Shown here in pieces: positions 4,131 through 47,034 of a stretch of 54,490 nucleotides of DNA. The DNA lies in the NCBI GenBank assembly GCA_012744475.1, contig JAAYBV010000040.1, positions 1 through 54,490 on the forward strand. The letters run 5' to 3'. Numbering within the stretch: the first letter of the stretch is position 1; every line of letters begins with the position of its first letter. The translations under genes and the position numbers were made by a program. Under the pieces are notes generated by a model. That model ran no database searches, was not told the DNA's origin, and saw nothing but the letters and a program-made list of their open reading frames with translations. Source of the stretch: Phycisphaerae bacterium (GTDB lineage: Bacteria > Planctomycetota > Phycisphaerae > Sedimentisphaerales > Anaerobacaceae).

Positions 4131-5030
4131 ATGGATCAAGATGCGAGTCTGCCCCGCTGCATCACACGGCGGGATGCCATCCGGATGACGGTGACTGCGG
4201 GTGTGGCGGCAGTCGTCGGGGGGTGCGGAAGTCGGAACGCCAAGACGGACAGCATGGGGGGCGATCCCTATGCCACACCCGCCAAGGAGCGCGCCGTGTT
4301 CGTCTGGCCCAAGGGCAAGCGAGCGGCGCTGAGCCTGACGTTCGACGATGCACGCGTCAGCCAGGCGCAGGTGGGTCTGCCGCTGCTCGACCGCTATGAC
4401 GTCAAGGCGACGTTCTACGTGTCACCCGGTCCGTTCCAGGCCCACCTGCCCGCGTGGAAGCAGGCGCTGGCCAACGGCCACGAGATCGGCAATCACTCAA
4501 TGCGTCACCCCTGCACGGGCAACTTCTCCTTTGCGCGGGACAAGGCGCTGGAGGACTACACGCTGGCGCAGATGGAGCGGGAGTTGGAGGAGGCGAACCG
4601 CGTCATCGAGTCGGCGGTGGGCGTGCGGCCGGCCACCTTCGCCTATCCGTGCGGCCAGAAGTTCGTCGGGCGCGGGACGCACCTGCACAGCTATGTGCCG
4701 CTGGTGGCGCGGATGTTCGAGGCCGGACGCGGCTGGATGGACGAGGCGGCCAACGACCCGGCGCTCTGCGACCCGGCCCAACTGCTCGGCATCGAGCTGG
4801 ACGGACGCGACTTCGCCGCCGCGAAGAAGCTCATCGACACCGCCGTCGAGAACGGCTCGTGGTTGGTCTTCGCCGGCCACGAAATCGGCGAGGGCGGACA
4901 CCAGACCACGCGGATCGACACGCTCGAAGCAATCTGCCAATACTCCCGGGACCCGAACAACGGGATCTGGATCGACACCGTCCAGAACATCGTCCGCTAC
5001 GTCCGCCAGGCGCCAGGTCAGGGTGAATGA
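4131..5030 (+). CDS. Polysaccharide deacetylase (NodB/CE4-like), exported lipoprotein
   Basis: Protein of 299 residues. The N terminus has twin arginines (R13-R14) in a Tat-like context, a hydrophobic stretch and a lipobox ending at C32, so it is probably an exported, lipid-anchored protein. The NodB fold is shown by T70-F-D-D73 (motif 1, with the metal-binding Asp) and H122-S-M-R-H126 (motif 2, the metal-binding histidines), followed by FAYPCGQ in the place of motif 3. CE4 enzymes remove acetyl groups from chitin, peptidoglycan or xylan, and the substrate here is unknown. GAGGTGA sits 5 nt before the ATG. The last codons and the TGA stop lie inside a family B palindromic repeat (5021-5045), so the repeat appears to have shaped the C terminus. 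Confidence 0.88.
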   Translation: MDQDASLPRCITRRDAIRMTVTAGVAAVVGGCGSRNAKTDSMGGDPYATPAKERAVFVWPKGKRAALSLTFDDARVSQAQVGLPLLDRYDVKATFYVSPGPFQAHLPAWKQALANGHEIGNHSMRHPCTGNFSFARDKALEDYTLAQMERELEEANRVIESAVGVRPATFAYPCGQKFVGRGTHLHSYVPLVARMFEAGRGWMDEAANDPALCDPAQLLGIELDGRDFAAAKKLIDTAVENGSWLVFAGHEIGEGGHQTTRIDTLEAICQYSRDPNNGIWIDTVQNIVRYVRQAPGQGE

Positions 5031-13247: not shown

Positions 13248-13289
13248 TTCGGCGTGGTCGTTTCGCTGCTCACCAGATGCAGGGGATTG

Positions 13290-13440
13290 AAATCCGAAGC
13301 ACGAAATCCGAAATCCGAAACAAATCCAAATCGCGAATTGCGAATGATCGAAACAACTGGCACTGGTCCGATCCTCGTTGGAGTTTCTGATTTCGGGCCG
13401 TCGTGCTTGTTTCGGGTTTCGATATTCGCGCTTCGGACTT
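13290..13440. repeat. ORF-less copy of the S23-element terminal repeats (family E)
   Basis: The left arm (13290-13350) begins AAATCCGAAGCACGAAATCC and continues through CCGAAACAAATCC. The right arm (13382-13440), read in reverse complement, begins AAGTCCGAAGCGCGAATATC and continues through CCCGAAACAAGCAC. The arms resemble those around the S23 gene at 44515-44992, but only about 30 bp separate them and no gene lies between. It is the only clear structure in the 627-bp gap 13248-13874 apart from the palindrome at 13839. Confidence 0.7.
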
Positions 13441-13838
13441 GGCCTGCTGATGCGGACCCGCACGGAAGCGAAGCCGCCCTTGCCGGCTTGGCAGGGACGA
13501 GGGCGCATGAAAAAAGGACGCCTCGGATCATCCGCAGGATAGGACCTCGGTCCACCGCAAGCGCCCCCCAGGTACGGTCCCGGTTGTATGGCTCTACTTA
13601 CTATACGTCCGACCCGGGCGGCATGCCGACGGACAAAGAACTATATCGCACCGGTAAATGGCTCGACGGACCACGCCTCAGGCTGCATTCCCCCGGAGCC
13701 TTCTGCCTACAGACACAGAATCACGCGAGGAACGAGCATCGCCCGGACGCAGGGGCAGGAATTTCCTTGTGGGCTGCACCTTTCCACCGGCCCGGCGTAC
13801 CAAGGACCATCGAGACATGAGGTCTTGCGTATTGGCCT

Positions 13839-19335: not shown

Positions 19336-19379
19336 CCGGTGATTCAGGATGAGCGAGATTCGGCTTAGCGTGTGTCACC

Positions 19380-19420
19380 AAATCCGAATTCCGAATGTCG
19401 AGACCCGAAACAAGCGCGAA
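19380..19420. repeat. Lone arm of the S23-element repeat (family E)
   Basis: Runs AAATCCGAATTCCGAATGTC then GAGACCCGAAACAAGCGCGAA, matching the arms at 13290-13440 and 44515-44992. No partner arm is seen nearby. Confidence 0.55.
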
Positions 19421-19535
19421 AGACGAAACAACAAATTTGCAACAGGGGCGCGCGGACATCGTGACTTGGGCCAGTGAGCCTCTGAACCTCCAAGAGTGTG
19501 AAGACCTTCCTCCTGCGCGTGCGGGCCCCTTCATG

Positions 19536-41661: not shown

Positions 41662-43221
41662 ATGCCTGACGACAAAGTCTTCATCTTCGACACGACGTTA
41701 CGTGACGGCGAACAATCGCCCGGTGCCTCGCTCTCGATCCCGCAGAAGCTCGAGATCGCCCAGCAACTGGCCGCCCTCGGGGTCGACATCATCGAGGCGG
41801 GCTTCCCGGTCTCCTCGCCGGCACAGTTCGAGGCGACGCGGCTCGTGGCAGAACAGGTGCAAGGTCCTGTCATTGCAGGACTTGCGCGAGCAAAGGACGT
41901 GGACATCGAAGCCGCGGGCAAGGCCGTCGCACCGGCCAAGAGGAGGCGCATCCACACCTTCATCGCGACTTCGCCGATCCACATGAAGCACAAGCTCAAC
42001 AAGAAGCCCGACGAGGTGGTGAAGATGGCGGTGGCTGCGATCCAGTGCGCCCGGCAGTTCGTCGATGACGTGGAATTCTCGCCGGAGGACGCTGGACGCA
42101 GCGAAGTCCCCTTCCTCATCGAGATCCTGGCCGCCGTGATCGAAGCCGGCGCCACCACGTTGAACATCCCGGACACCGTCGGCTACATGCTGCCGTACGA
42201 ATACGGCCAGCTCATCGCCCAGCTCAAGAGCAAGGTCCCGGGCATCGACAAGTGCGTCATCAGCACGCACTGTCACAACGACCTCGGTCTGGCGGTCGCC
42301 AATTCGCTGGCGGGCGTGCGCAGCGGGGCCCGGCAGGTCGAGGTCGCCGTCAACGGGCTCGGCGAGCGGGCCGGAAACGCCGCGCTCGAAGAAATCGTCA
42401 TGGCGATCCACACCCGCGCCAACTTCTTCGCCGACGGCAGTGCCAACGGGCTGAACACAAACATCAACACGAAGGAAATCTATCGCACCAGCCAGTTGGT
42501 GTCCCAATTGACCGGATTCGTGATCCAGCCCAACAAGGCCATCGTCGGCGCCAACGCGTTCGCGCACGAGTCGGGCATCCACGTGGACGGGATCCTCAAG
42601 GAGCGCAGCACCTATGAGATCATGACGCCGGAGACGATCGGGCTGGGCGGGTCGCGCATGGTGCTCGGACGTCACACCGGCCGGCACGGATTTGCCGACC
42701 GCTGTCGACAGCTTGGTTATAAGCTCACCAAGGAGGAGGTCGAACAGGCCTACGCGCGGTTCCTCGAAATCGCCGACAAGAAGAAGGAAGTGTTCGACGA
42801 GGACGTCGCCGCGATCATCAACGATGAGGTCCGCGTGGTGTCGCAGGTGTACGAGCTGAAATACCTGCACGTCGCGTGCGGCACCGGCACGTTGCCGACC
42901 GCCAGCGTGCGGATGAAGATCGCGGACCAGGAACGGCTGGCGGCCGCCTGCGGCGACGGCCCGGTCGATGCGGCGTACGAGGCGATCCGCGAGGCTACCG
43001 GCCTGTCGCCCAAGCTGGAGAACTATTCCATCCGCGCCGTCACGGGAGGCAAGGACGCGCTGGGCGAAGCGACGGTTCGGATCGTCGAGGCCGGACGGAC
43101 GTTCATCGGCCGCGGCGTCTCCACCGACATCATCGAAGCCAGCGCCAAGGCCTACGTCGACGCCATCAACCGGATGACCGCCGTCCAGCAGGCCAACGGC
43201 CAGGCGACGACAAACGCATAG
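41662..43221 (+). CDS. leuA: 2-isopropylmalate synthase
   Basis: Protein of 519 residues, the first committed enzyme of leucine synthesis: it joins acetyl-CoA and 2-oxoisovalerate. Signatures include F-D-T-T-L-R-D-G-E-Q-S-P-G at 9-21, H-C-H-N-D-L-G-L-A metal-binding histidines and N-G-L-G-E-R-A-G-N. The C-terminal LeuA regulatory domain (about 390-505) is present, so leucine feedback is expected. The length fits the family. GGAG lies 7 nt before the ATG at 41662. A leader peptide and stem-loop precede it. It is followed by leuC after 30 bp. Confidence 0.96.
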   Translation: MPDDKVFIFDTTLRDGEQSPGASLSIPQKLEIAQQLAALGVDIIEAGFPVSSPAQFEATRLVAEQVQGPVIAGLARAKDVDIEAAGKAVAPAKRRRIHTFIATSPIHMKHKLNKKPDEVVKMAVAAIQCARQFVDDVEFSPEDAGRSEVPFLIEILAAVIEAGATTLNIPDTVGYMLPYEYGQLIAQLKSKVPGIDKCVISTHCHNDLGLAVANSLAGVRSGARQVEVAVNGLGERAGNAALEEIVMAIHTRANFFADGSANGLNTNINTKEIYRTSQLVSQLTGFVIQPNKAIVGANAFAHESGIHVDGILKERSTYEIMTPETIGLGGSRMVLGRHTGRHGFADRCRQLGYKLTKEEVEQAYARFLEIADKKKEVFDEDVAAIINDEVRVVSQVYELKYLHVACGTGTLPTASVRMKIADQERLAAACGDGPVDAAYEAIREATGLSPKLENYSIRAVTGGKDALGEATVRIVEAGRTFIGRGVSTDIIEASAKAYVDAINRMTAVQQANGQATTNA

Positions 43222-43251
43222 CTTCAGCCGAAAGAAAAAGGAATCTACATC

Positions 43252-44514
43252 ATGGGAATGACGATAACGGAGAAGATCTTCGCGCGGGCCAGCGGACACA
43301 GGAAAGTGACGCCCGGGCAACTGGTGGATGCGAACATCGACGTGGTGATGTGTCACGATGTAACGACGCCTCCGGCGATCTCGATGCTGGTCGAGCGCGG
43401 CATCGACCGCGTGTTCGATCCGGAGAAGATCGTCGTGACGCCGGACCACTTCCAGCCGCCCAAGGACGTCAAGAGCGCCGAACTGCACAAGCGTCTGGAC
43501 GCGTGGGCGAAGCAGCACAAGATCAAGTACTACTACAAGCTGGGCCGGGCGGGCGTCTGCCACGCACTGCTGCCCGAGCAGGGACACATCCGCCCGGGCG
43601 AGGTGATTGTGGGCGGCGATTCGCACACGTGCACCTACGGCGCCCTGGCCGCCTTCAGCACCGGGATCGGCTCGACCGACCTGGCGGCCTCGATCGCAAC
43701 GGGCCGGCTCTGGTTCCGCGTGCCCGCGTCGATGAAATTCGTTTTGAACGGCTCGCTGCGGTCCGGCGTGTACAGCAAGGACGTGATCCTGACGGTGATC
43801 GCGCGGATCGGCACGGACGGCGCGCTCTACAAGGCGATGGAGTTCGTCGGGCCGGCGCTGGCCAAGATGTCGATGGAAGCGCGCATGACGATCACGAACA
43901 TGGCCATCGAGGCCGGGGCCAAGAACGGCATCATCGGGTTCGACGATGTCACGAAGGCCTATCTCGACGGGCGGTTGAAGGGCAAACAGGACTACACCGC
44001 CGTTGCCTCCGACGACGACGCGGACTATGCGGCGGTCGAGGAATTCGACTGCTCGGCGATCGAACCGATGGTGGCTCTGCCGCACCTACCCAGCGGCGGG
44101 GTTGCCATCGGGAACTGCGCCGGCATGGCCATGGACCAGGCGTACATCGGCAGTTGCACGAACGGTCGCATCGAAGACCTTCGGATCGCCGCCGGCGTCC
44201 TCAAGGGCAAGGAGGTGAAGATTCGGACGCTGGTCGTGCCGGCCACGCCGGTGATCTGGAAGCAGGCGGCGGACGAGGGGTTGTTCGACGTGTTCTACGA
44301 CGCCGGCTGTGTGATCTCGGCGCCGACCTGCGGCGCGTGTCTGGGCGGGTTCATGGGCGTACTGGCCGCCGGAGAGAAGTGCATCAGCACGACGAACCGC
44401 AACTTTGTCGGCCGGATGGGCAGTCCCAAGAGCGAGGTCTACCTCGCCAGCCCCGCCACCGTCGCCGCCAGCGCCGTCGAAGGCCGGCTCGCCGACCCAA
44501 GGAAGCACCTGTAG
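43252..44514 (+). CDS. leuC: 3-isopropylmalate dehydratase large subunit
   Basis: Protein of 420 residues of the aconitase superfamily, in the shorter form also found in archaea (LeuC/HacA type). It binds a 4Fe-4S cluster through cysteines in G-S-C-T-N-G-R and P-T-C-G-A-C-L-G-G. G-G-D-S-H-T-C-T-Y-G and the C-terminal T-T-N-R-N-F-V-G-R-M-G are also conserved. With LeuD it isomerises 2- to 3-isopropylmalate. AAGGA lies about 9 nt before the ATG. The S23 element begins at the base after its stop codon and separates it from leuD by 556 bp. Confidence 0.95.
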   Translation: MGMTITEKIFARASGHRKVTPGQLVDANIDVVMCHDVTTPPAISMLVERGIDRVFDPEKIVVTPDHFQPPKDVKSAELHKRLDAWAKQHKIKYYYKLGRAGVCHALLPEQGHIRPGEVIVGGDSHTCTYGALAAFSTGIGSTDLAASIATGRLWFRVPASMKFVLNGSLRSGVYSKDVILTVIARIGTDGALYKAMEFVGPALAKMSMEARMTITNMAIEAGAKNGIIGFDDVTKAYLDGRLKGKQDYTAVASDDDADYAAVEEFDCSAIEPMVALPHLPSGGVAIGNCAGMAMDQAYIGSCTNGRIEDLRIAAGVLKGKEVKIRTLVVPATPVIWKQAADEGLFDVFYDAGCVISAPTCGACLGGFMGVLAAGEKCISTTNRNFVGRMGSPKSEVYLASPATVAASAVEGRLADPRKHL

Positions 44515-44992
44515 CAAAATACGAATATCGAAAACCGAAATCCGAGACAAGCTCGAATGACCAAGGCTCAAAACCCCAAACAGTACGATTTGGAAGACCG
44601 GACGCTTGCCTTTGCGCGCGCCGTCCGTGAATTCGTCAAGAGCCTGAAGCCAACGACCGCCAACATCGAGGACGGCAAACAGCTCGTCAGGGCGTCAGGT
44701 TCCGTCGGGGCGAACTATATTGAGGCGAACGAGGCTCTGGGTAAGAAGGATTTCCTGATGCGAATCAGGATCTGCAAGAAGGAATCCAAGGAGAGCCGGT
44801 ATTGGCTCAGACTCGTCGATACCTGCGATGACCGGAAACTGGATGCCCGAAGGGAAGACTTGATACAAGAGGCCACAGAGTTGATGAATATCTTCGGCTC
44901 AATCATCCGGAAGAGCGAATAGCGTTTGCGGATTCGATATTTGAGAATTCTGATTTGTCTCGGATTTCGATATTCGGATTTCGGATTTTGCG
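44515..44992. mobile_element. S23 (23S intervening-sequence type) element with inverted arms
   Basis: The left arm (44515-44560) and right arm (44941-44992, in reverse complement) share CAAAATxCGAA, TATCGAAA and CCGAGACAA, then GAAT. They enclose the S23 four-helix gene (44557-44922), whose start codon is at the end of the left arm. The element begins directly after the leuC stop and splits leuC from leuD. An ORF-less copy of the arms is at 13290-13440 and a lone arm at 19380-19420. Confidence 0.65.
44557..44922 (+). CDS. S23 / four-helix bundle protein
   Basis: Protein of 121 residues of the S23 family, first seen as the open reading frame of 23S rRNA intervening sequences. Features are D-L-E-D-R-T-L-A-F-A-R-A-V-R, V-R-A-S-G-S-V-G-A-N-Y-I-E-A-N-E-A, K-K-D-F-L-M-R-I-R-I-C-K-K-E-S-K-E-S and Y-W-L-R-L. 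Members form pentameric four-helix bundles; their function is unknown, with nucleic-acid binding suspected. It lies between leuC and leuD, flanked by inverted A/T-rich arms, and has no good ribosome site apart from the arm sequence. It has no evident link to leucine synthesis. Confidence 0.9.
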   Translation: MTKAQNPKQYDLEDRTLAFARAVREFVKSLKPTTANIEDGKQLVRASGSVGANYIEANEALGKKDFLMRIRICKKESKESRYWLRLVDTCDDRKLDARREDLIQEATELMNIFGSIIRKSE

Positions 44993-45070
44993 GACGCGTG
45001 ATTTTGATGTTTGCGATTTGATCTTTGATATCCATGCCATGGTGACTCGATCAGAAGTGAGGATAGAGGA

Positions 45071-45559
45071 ATGAGCAAGGCACATGTATACAAGCGGGAT
45101 CATATCAATACGGATGAGATCATTCCGGCGCGGTACCTGAATACGGACGCGGAGGCAGAGTTGGCGACACACTGTCTGGAGGATCTCGACGTGAACTTCG
45201 TCAAGAAGGTCCGGCCGGGTGACGTGGTGGTGGCTGGCGATGACTTCGGCTGCGGCTCCAGCCGCGAACACGCCGTCTGGGCGATTCGCGGCGCGAAGGT
45301 CCAGACGGTGATCGCGCGGTCGTTCGCGCGGATCTTCTACCGCAACGCGATCGACTGCGGATTCTACCTGATCGAATCGGCGGAGGCGGTAAACAAGATC
45401 ACCGACGGCGACGAGGTCGAGATCGACTACGACGCCGGCGTGATCCACGACAAGACCAACGGCCGCAAGATCAAGTTCCAGCCGCTGCCTGACTTCGCAC
45501 TGGAGATCATCGCCGCCGGCGGCCTGCTGAACAAGATCGCCGCTGAATTGAAAGGCTGA
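45071..45559 (+). CDS. leuD: 3-isopropylmalate dehydratase small subunit
   Basis: Protein of 162 residues, the swivel domain that completes the LeuCD isomerase. It has [29 protein letters not shown] and [10 protein letters not shown], all family signatures. The length fits the short archaeal-type LeuD that pairs with a 420-residue LeuC. The ATG at 45071 is preceded by a purine-rich GAGGATAGAGGA. A polygalacturonase gene follows after 5 bp. Confidence 0.95.
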
Positions 45560-45564
45560 GATCG

Positions 45565-47034
45565 ATGCCTTCGAGACTTGGACGATCCATGCGATGGACC
45601 GCGCTCGTCTTCGCAGCGCTGGCGCTGGGTCTTTGGGCCCCTGCGCGCGCCGCCGTGGTGACCTACCCAACGCCGGAAGGTGCGCCGCAGGCCTCGGATT
45701 TCCAGGTGAAGGTCGACGGCCAGGCGCAGTTCGTCCACGACTCGGCGATTGCGGCCTTCTGCACTTTCTCGTTCAGAGGAAAGGTGCGCGTTTCGGTGAC
45801 GCCTCAGAAGGAGTTCGCGAGGGTGGACATCCGGCCCAAAAGCCGCAACGTGAGCTTCACCGTCGAGGATGGAACGATCCATTTCGACCTGGAACGTCCG
45901 TGCCAACTGAGCATCGAGCTGGATGGGGACATCGAGCGGCCGCTGTTTCTGTTCGCCAATCCGCCCGAGAAGAAGACCCCGAAGCCGGACCACGAGCGGA
46001 TGCACTACTTCGGGCCGGGCAAGGTTTACGATGTCGGCGAGATCATCCTGACCAGCGGCGAAATGCTCTACATTGCCGGCGGCGCCGTGGTGCGCGGCCG
46101 CGTGCGGGCCGAGAACGCCAGGAATGTGCGTGTGGCCGGGTATGGTGTTCTGGACGGCACGCATCGCGACACCAAGACGCAGATGCTCAAGTTCTCCAGG
46201 TGCACCGGCGTCGAAGTGAGCGGCATCGTGATCCTCGGCAGTTACGGCTGGACCGTGGTGCCGATCCGGTCGGACAACGTAAAGATCGACAACGTCAAGA
46301 TCGTCGGCTGGCGTGATAACGACGACGGCGTCGATATCGTCGGTTGTCACAACCTGACGGTCTCCGATTCGTTCCTGCGAACGAAGGACGACTGTATTGC
46401 GGTCAAGGCCTCGCCGGCGTATTTCGAGGGCGGCGAGAGCGGCCTGCGCGACGTCCGGAAGGTCGCGGTCGTCAATTCCGTGCTGTGGAACGCCGAATGG
46501 GGCAACGCTATGGAGATCGGCTTCGAGCTCCAGACCGAGTCCGTTCGCGACATCGTGTTCAAGGATTGCGACATCATCCACGTCGAGCGCGGCGGCACCT
46601 TTACGATCCACAACGGGGACTGGGCCACCGTTGAGAACATCCGCTTCGAGGACATCCGCGTGGAGGACTCGCGCGATAAGCTGATCGAGTTTCGCATCGG
46701 CCTGTCGATCTACAGCGGAGATTGTCCCCAGGAATATCATCGGCAGAACCCGGATCGCAAGCGCAGCCCGCTCGGGCAGTGGATGTTCGTAACGGACGAC
46801 GAACTGAGCACGTACGCGGCCAGGCGAGGACGCATCCGCAACGTGCACTTCAAAGACATCGACGTGACCGCAGATAAGCCGCCCGTCTCGTTCCTGGTCG
46901 GCTACGACAACGACGAGCACAGCGTGCAGAACGTCACGATCGAGAACCTGCGCATCAACGGCGCGCTCGTCCGCAGTCCGAATGAAGGCCATTTCACCAT
47001 CGAACGCGCAAAGGGAATCCGCTTCGCCCCGTAA
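45565..47034 (+). CDS. GH28-like polygalacturonase / beta-helix glycosidase, secreted
   Basis: Protein of 489 residues. A signal peptide (about 1-29, ending A-P-A-R-A) precedes a beta domain (30-125) like that of GH49 or GH28-associated modules. A parallel beta-helix follows with the GH28 acid pair region D-N-D-D-G-V-D-I and S-F-L-R-T-K-D-D-C-I-A-V-K at about 252-277, where the catalytic aspartates lie. G-D-W-A-T-V-E-N-I-R-F-E shows typical helix coils. GH28 enzymes cut polygalacturonan or related pectic chains; GH49 acts on dextran-type glucans. It starts 5 bp after leuD, inside the leu gene run. Confidence 0.87.
   Translation: MPSRLGRSMRWTALVFAALALGLWAPARAAVVTYPTPEGAPQASDFQVKVDGQAQFVHDSAIAAFCTFSFRGKVRVSVTPQKEFARVDIRPKSRNVSFTVEDGTIHFDLERPCQLSIELDGDIERPLFLFANPPEKKTPKPDHERMHYFGPGKVYDVGEIILTSGEMLYIAGGAVVRGRVRAENARNVRVAGYGVLDGTHRDTKTQMLKFSRCTGVEVSGIVILGSYGWTVVPIRSDNVKIDNVKIVGWRDNDDGVDIVGCHNLTVSDSFLRTKDDCIAVKASPAYFEGGESGLRDVRKVAVVNSVLWNAEWGNAMEIGFELQTESVRDIVFKDCDIIHVERGGTFTIHNGDWATVENIRFEDIRVEDSRDKLIEFRIGLSIYSGDCPQEYHRQNPDRKRSPLGQWMFVTDDELSTYAARRGRIRNVHFKDIDVTADKPPVSFLVGYDNDEHSVQNVTIENLRINGALVRSPNEGHFTIERAKGIRFAP

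Follow-up and report, generated by a model that had tools for sequence, protein, structure and literature searches.

REPIN/RAYT systems consist of many short ORF-less inverted doublets and of a few helper genes that are framed by the same repeat, with pairing between helper and repeat, and RAYTs are thought to serve REPINs. Tandem heptamers form another kind of dispersed repeat, and the first work on one of them, the STRR, is said to be that of Mazel in 1990. In the relevant passages of PMC4692102, PMC4679880, PMC2700814 and PMC2670836, the cyanobacterial STRR, Xanthomonas GGGAATC, Beggiatoa TAACTGA and Geobacter heptanucleotide families are described as 7-bp tandem, mostly intergenic repeats, which occur as inverted pairs or hairpins in several cases. 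The intervening sequences (IVS) of 23S rRNA are a third related system, and their functionality and origin are called unclear in the part of Warrier et al. (PMC4990558) that deals with them. The same part cites Ralph and McClelland (1993) for the suggestion that the IVS ORF is needed for mobility, and it gives results suggesting that Coxiella does not produce its S23 protein in vivo. Therefore, the rRNA form may not need S23.

The locus described here lies between leuC (43252-44514, plus strand) and leuD (45071-45559, plus strand) in the window, that is, the whole analysed stretch of 54,490 nucleotides. It is probably one copy of a mobile unit that is widespread in bacteria and in which an S23 gene is framed by inverted arrays of a family-specific heptamer, S23-less pairs of arrays being non-autonomous and S23 being the cognate helper. 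The leuC stop codon TAG ends at 44514, and the left arm (44515-44556, plus strand) begins at the next base, as had been stated in the earlier note. The S23 (23S_rRNA_IVP) gene of 121 aa follows (44557-44922, plus strand) and matched PF05635 in a Pfam profile search with an E-value of 5e-11, over the gathering score. It is followed by the right arm (44924-44991, minus strand). The inverted-repeat search paired 44514-44581 with 44924-44991 as inverted copies of 68 nt that have 72% complementarity and contain sub-blocks of 22 nt (left arm 91% complementary to the right) and 15 nt (93%). The earlier note had correctly described inverted arms around the gene, and the words that it quoted from them (CAAAATxCGAA, TATCGAAA and CCGAGACAA) are present; it had missed that each arm is built from a short, tandemly repeated unit that usually measures 7 bp. 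In the window element, this unit is the degenerate CGAANNN, and the two arrays are mutually inverted. Like an IVS, the element encodes an S23/IVP protein and has complementary ends that form a stem, which was present in the MFE fold. When the complete element was folded as RNA, the result was unremarkable (z -1.34) and gave no support to an exceptional RNA hairpin. The element does not lie inside a 23S rRNA gene but between leuC and leuD, and no Rfam match at the gathering threshold was found in 43000-46500.

The distribution of the arms was studied in the window's own genome (G000; 5.75 Mb, 118 contigs). In the window, the arm 15-mer with at most 3 mismatches was found 10 times against 1.3 expected, and none of 100 shuffles reached 10. 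The search of the full genome with GAAATCCGARACAA (at most 1 mismatch) gave 67 matches, compared with 0 for the reversed pattern; hence, the arms do recur elsewhere in the genome. Among the 21 close pairs (at most 200 bp apart), 20 were convergent, 0 divergent and 1 same-direction, so that the arm family forms dispersed inverted doublets, as REPINs do. The convergent pairs were spaced 79-139 bp apart, and 40 of the 67 matches sat in such close pairs without an S23 gene. The orientation of these ORF-less pairs is that of the arms framing S23. Both an ORF-less pair near 13.3 kb and a lone arm near 19.4 kb, which had been reported previously, proved real: the former, a convergent MITE/REPIN-like derivative, occupies 13289-13441 (no strand assigned), and the latter 19379-19433 (plus strand).

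From the loci around the 67 matches, 30 ORF-less pairs were extracted with 2 mismatches allowed, although two of them (L010 and L033) look like one place on overlapping contig ends. The word AATGA just inside the arm, at the position of the S23 start codon, was found on one side only in 15 of the 30 pairs, on both sides in none and on neither side in 15. This distribution would fit an origin of the ORF-less pairs by internal deletion of the full S23 element, and it is no more than suggestive, because CGAATG-like words abound in the arm repeat itself. Two GAAATCC pairs, L023 (C29) and L041 (C91), were seen by eye to enclose inner ATCAAA-like arrays, as if one repeat family had landed inside another.

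PF05635 finds seven places in this genome. When the flanks were inspected by eye, each of the 7 S23 genes was found to be flanked by oppositely oriented copies of a repeat of its own. The arms were of the AACTGAG-like, CGTGAAG, CGACGAG, CACTTCA and AATAGTA-like types, of an octamer type (GGAATACT-like) and, in the window, of the CGAANNN type; thus, the repeat unit was 7 bp in 6 of the 7 loci. The earlier note had recognised the arm copies in the window and had missed both that each S23 gene has its own arrays and that this pattern extends across bacteria. One S23 gene, L006 (C86), contains an internal TAG, and its arms are still there.

To describe the pattern across bacteria, the genome_contigs collection, in which each of 84,980 species is represented by one genome, was scanned with an S23 alignment. 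At least 588 stretches matched, 509 were confirmed, and the best 80 loci of those were kept. The titles of these best 80 loci name Acidobacteria, Proteobacteria, Bacteroidetes, Chloroflexi, Clostridia, cyanobacteria, a Treponema, Planctomycetes, CPR, an archaeon and others. After 8 loci were dropped (contig end, N run or unrecovered ORF), 72 remained, and 150 bp upstream of each gene was locally aligned with the reverse complement of 150 bp downstream. The median of this inverted-flank score was 19, compared with 8 for permuted partners (n=2559), 9 for neighbour ORFs (n=343) and 9 for the direct orientation. Thirty-five of the 72 loci scored above the 99th percentile of neighbour ORFs, and 18 were at or under the 95th. 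In the matched segments of loci scoring at least 15, autocorrelation was 0.53 at lag 7, 0.49 at lag 14 and 0.25-0.32 at other lags; the best lag was 7 or 14 in 86 of 104 segments and 8 or 16 in 15. The lag-7 autocorrelation indicates that these intergenic arrays are built of degenerate units repeated in tandem every 7 bp, as in STRR and other heptamer families.

The second set of loci comprised the fetched part of 145 S23 matches in 31 genomes (the own genome and 30 relatives), together with plasmids, and it included 113 distinct genes, 110 of them with full flanks. Their median flank score was 17, compared with 8 for permuted partners, and a score of at least 14 was reached by 76 of the 110 loci but by only 94 of 2727 permuted pairs. 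The remaining 34 loci were within about the 95th percentile of the controls; among them was L003 of the own genome, whose S23 ORF continues through the right arm. A quarter to a third of S23 loci therefore fail the flank-score test, and several printed low-scoring loci still have an array on one side or on both. The low scores are partly technical, because start codons were guessed and some ORFs run through the arm. In phages, no tblastn match was found with one S23 query. The S23 inserts of L145 (Desulfobacteraceae) and L192 (Balneolales), around position 5000, seem by eye to share both the gene and the codon at which they are located (..FGEPDI / ..GVDVF).

Protein identity was compared with arm similarity over the 130 of 182 S23 loci that had recognised arms, a score of at least 12 being taken as an arm match. 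Among pairs at different sites (no detectable flanking gene in common), the arms matched in 14 of 14 pairs at protein identities of at least 70%, in 21 of 45 at 60-70%, in 67 of 411 at 50-60% and in 386 of 7787 below 50%; these pairs are not mutually independent. Eight of the 14 high-identity pairs that share arms came from one A/T-rich group (L082, L251, L254, L255 and L256), in which low complexity helps, and examples with arms of higher complexity are L149/L162, L151/L200, L196/L198 and L007/L283. Therefore, it may be concluded that the arms follow the S23 protein sequence at unrelated sites. Among the 31 genomes, the arm count by hand had a median of 18 in the 7 genomes with an S23 protein at least 55% identical and of 4.5 in the other 24. 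Three genomes without a close S23 gene were rich in arms (G004, 25 matches; G012, 40; G020, 47; reversed-pattern controls gave 0-5 per genome), and strict co-occurrence of arm and S23 among relatives was rejected for this reason. A 24-residue S23 fragment at 75% identity was found in G012.

The relation of S23 to a known heptamer was studied in Xanthomonadaceae. The Xanthomonas study reports, in the relevant passages, about 180 GGGAATC heptamers in each of two Xanthomonas genomes, in 70-75 cases as convergent pairs, and in general no association with mobile elements was found by its authors (PMC4692102). The family to which L174 (a Lysobacteraceae bacterium) belongs was represented by 198 genomes; PF05635 was found in 84 of them, and the GGGAATC dimer GGGAATCGGGAATC in 61, compared with 2 for the reversed-pattern control. 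At least 3 dimer matches, which overlap, so that one long array is counted several times, were present in 42 of the 84 genomes with S23 and in 11 of the 114 without it (Fisher p 4e-10, phylogeny ignored). When S23 loci were read in 50 of the 84 genomes, one per genome, accC was the neighbour in 25 and carB in 16. At least 3 dimer matches were present in 20 of the 23 genomes with GGGA[AT]TC in the upstream arm of S23, as against 8 of the 27 with other arms. Thus, in Xanthomonadaceae the known GGGAATC repeats accompany an S23 gene with such arms. The protein of one locus beside accC (L391) had one PDB match, 2gsc, which is XCC0516 of Xanthomonas campestris (E 7e-36). The idea of a G-quadruplex, raised in a passage of PMC4692102, was rejected as the general reason for heptamers, since many S23 arms, like GAAATCC and TTCAAAA, are not G-rich.

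Filled and empty sites were then compared, starting with the leuC-leuD gap. The leuD gene was matched with E <= 0.001 in all 31 genomes, the match being merely distant in G001, G017 and G022; 28 loci were examined, and leuC, which is recognisable by its sequence, was found by alignment of its C-terminal part in 23. As judged by eye, the gap contained a GAAATCC-type S23 element in 4 of the 23 loci (including those of G000 and G005), a different S23 gene with ATCAAA-type arms in 3 (two in the same genus as G000), an ORF-less GAAATCC pair in 1, another short pair in 1, a GxxExxY (PF13366) gene with its own arms in 3 and something else in 3. In the other 8 loci, the gap was at most 62 bp without a gene, and one of them (L078) may retain a remnant array. 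The same S23 gene and arms are thus not present at this site in all relatives. Local alignment of 44998-45031 (minus strand), past the right arm of the window element, scored 32.5, 26 and 17.5 with ATCAAA-type loci L068, L066 and L082, and 23.5 with the equivalent stretch in G005 (L065), in alignments that have no control and take in shared outer flank. Because this stretch aligns with ATCAAA-type right arms, it is probably the right-arm remnant of a different S23 element, and the present element probably displaced this older one. In L238 (G024, C20), S23 matches flank leuD on both sides (43862-44146 and 46502-46801; leuD at 45669-46139).

Related cyanobacterial plasmids, with about 86-95% identity in the flanks, provided three further sites. 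The first, between a TraM-like gene and a hypothetical gene, is filled in Nostoc C052 and N. edaphicum, empty in two Nostoc C057 plasmids (~95% identity) and occupied by an array pair without S23 in ATCC 53789 (88%). The second, between an integrase and a hypothetical gene, is filled in two Calothrix brevissima plasmids and empty in Tolypothrix, Aulosira and N. carneum (~91%). At the third, between two adjacent genes, Aulosira plasmid 2 carries a counter-oriented element (S23 Pfam E 7.6e-22), and a Calothrix record (86% to this plasmid) is empty, as are the other three. No second plasmid was found for Nostoc nrdB-nrdA as a further case. Each of the three sites involved a small replacement of target bases with fuzzy ends, and no clear target duplication, the trait of classical IS and MITE (DDE) elements, was seen at them, the target being partly replaced and the flanks diverged. 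The earlier proposal of a mobile element with defined ends and MITE-like derivatives therefore agrees with the dispersed arms, the ORF-less derivatives and the filled and empty sites, but not, at the plasmid sites, in the sharpness of the ends.

The recurrent sites leuC-leuD, beside accC and beside carB are operon gaps, and relative to same-strand neighbours the S23 gene was co-oriented in 41 of 48 loci and counter-oriented in 7 (crude ORF calls). Both observations would be expected if S23 were an RNA-binding regulator whose targets were the hairpins of heptamers within operon gaps, and if these hairpins had spread through selection and recombination without transposition; a passage of PMC2670836, in which effects of STRR hairpins on transcript stability or translational coupling are suggested, points the same way. 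This explanation is quite improbable, since related plasmids have filled and empty sites, one gap (leuC-leuD) is occupied by different families, and counter-oriented genes exist, including the annotated cases of Nostoc nrdB-nrdA and Aulosira plasmid 2. The co-orientation bias itself fits selection against operon disruption as well as an RNA step.

Candidate enzymes for the movement of the arms were sought in the own genome. The only Y1_Tnp match is on C22 (Y1 transposase gene, L063 1255-2010). This gene is framed by a GGCAAGCNNNGCTTGCC-like REP, which by eye differs from the S23 arms; the gene framed by the S23-type repeat is S23 and not a Y1 HUH transposase. A RAYT was thus rejected as the driver of the window repeat, yet one copy of the S23-family arm is located at a distance of about 1.6 kb from this Y1 gene. 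A reverse transcriptase was rejected as well, no RVT_1 (PF00078) match being found in this genome, which thus does not show the reverse transcriptase of diversity-generating retroelements (DGRs). In S23, no transposase or nuclease domain was found with Pfam or PADLOC, and no PADLOC defence model matched the three S23 proteins tried.

GxxExxY (PF13366, PDDEXK_3) genes were also found inside inverted short-repeat arms (L311-L340, and leuC-leuD gaps L072, L075 and L079). This family is unrelated to S23, has the same architecture and is nuclease-like by its name. In the 25 of 30 loci that were usable, the median inverted score was 19, compared with 9 for permuted partners, whose 95th percentile was high (18) because the loci share arm types. 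The GxxExxY arms had no period-7 peak, and by eye their unit is about 9-10 bp.

These observations bear on whether the arrays could be mobilised by another enzyme (a RAYT, an integrase, or replication slippage or template switching), S23 being cargo or a binding protein recruited later. The absence of a transposase or nuclease domain, the similarly framed GxxExxY genes, the arm copy near the Y1 gene and the persistence of arms in genomes without a close S23 gene, such as the 11 S23-less Xanthomonadaceae genomes with dimer matches, would agree with this. It nevertheless appears unlikely, because the sole Y1_Tnp match is surrounded by a different repeat, RVT_1 is not matched, and, at unrelated sites, the arms vary with the S23 sequence, which is not expected of cargo.

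The window S23 protein was predicted to be a four-helix bundle (AlphaFold mean pLDDT 91.7). Among solved structures, its fold is closest to those of 2rld and 2gsc, two S23-family entries that each contain five chains in the crystal; although these structures are solved, the proteins are named uncharacterised in the entries. In an alignment of 40 S23 sequences (A2), P32, Q42, S49, N53 and E56 were invariant. Foldseek also matched the model to Avd of DGRs (8ub7 and 4dwl) with a probability of 1.00 and E-values of 0.085-0.28, and the S23 proteins of L267 and L263 had sub-threshold bAvd Pfam matches. Together with the co-orientation bias, this likeness could point to spread at the RNA level, the unit being a stand-alone relative of the rRNA IVS whose RNA hairpin is moved by reverse transcription with an Avd-like S23. 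Such spread is highly improbable: pectin methylesterase inhibitors, which are unrelated four-helix proteins, rank over Avd in the same search (E 0.048), the own genome has no RVT_1 match, and counter-oriented insertions exist.

The best reading of the anatomy of these units, their generality, the pairing of protein and arm, the dispersed derivatives and the filled and empty sites is that S23 units and S23-less derivatives would work like REPIN/RAYT systems, with S23 as the cognate helper. The S23 four-helix bundle would recognise its own heptamer arrays, probably as a hairpin in single-stranded DNA or RNA. S23 may be needed for movement or spread, and it may help copies to land in intergenic operon gaps, where copies are tolerated. 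One S23 gene would serve many derivatives; in the own genome, there are one close S23 gene and about 30 pairs. More tentatively, and with slightly less than even odds, the mobility factors that have long been missing for STRR, GGGAATC and other heptamer repeats of bacteria may be the S23 proteins. The repeats and S23 would then form a phylum-spanning class of mobile elements that end in tandem heptamers and have a four-helix-bundle protein instead of any known transposase, and the rRNA IVS would be one specialised landing site.

The heptamer repeats of cyanobacteria, Xanthomonas, Beggiatoa and Geobacter have been known separately from S23 and so far have no established origin. The link provides a candidate helper gene for these repeats and a testable job for S23, the binding of its own heptamer, and it makes the known structure 2gsc directly usable in binding tests. 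Such a link was not found in the accessible parts of the open-access PMC literature, including PMC11270868 (most subscription papers and all of bioRxiv lie outside this scope), and the texts of PMC4692102 and PMC4679880 had 0 matches to "S23" or "four helix".

Among known systems, the Avd protein of DGRs is a four-helix bundle like S23, with weak E-values; unlike in DGRs, no RVT_1 reverse transcriptase was matched in the own genome. The window element resembles 23S rRNA IVSs in having an S23-family ORF within complementary ends, a patchy distribution and an earlier proposal of mobility, but it is located between protein-coding genes, ends in heptamer arrays and has dispersed ORF-less copies. 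With the STRR and other heptamers, as far as the passages describing them go, S23 loci share mostly intergenic 7-bp tandem arrays and inverted pairs, whereas those passages name no S23 partner. With REPIN/RAYT systems, the S23 system shares ORF-less inverted doublets, few repeat-framed helper genes and pairing of gene and repeat. The two differ in that S23 is a four-helix bundle and RAYT a Y1 HUH transposase, and in that the S23 repeats are 7-bp tandem arrays, whereas the REPIN repeat is a single palindrome.
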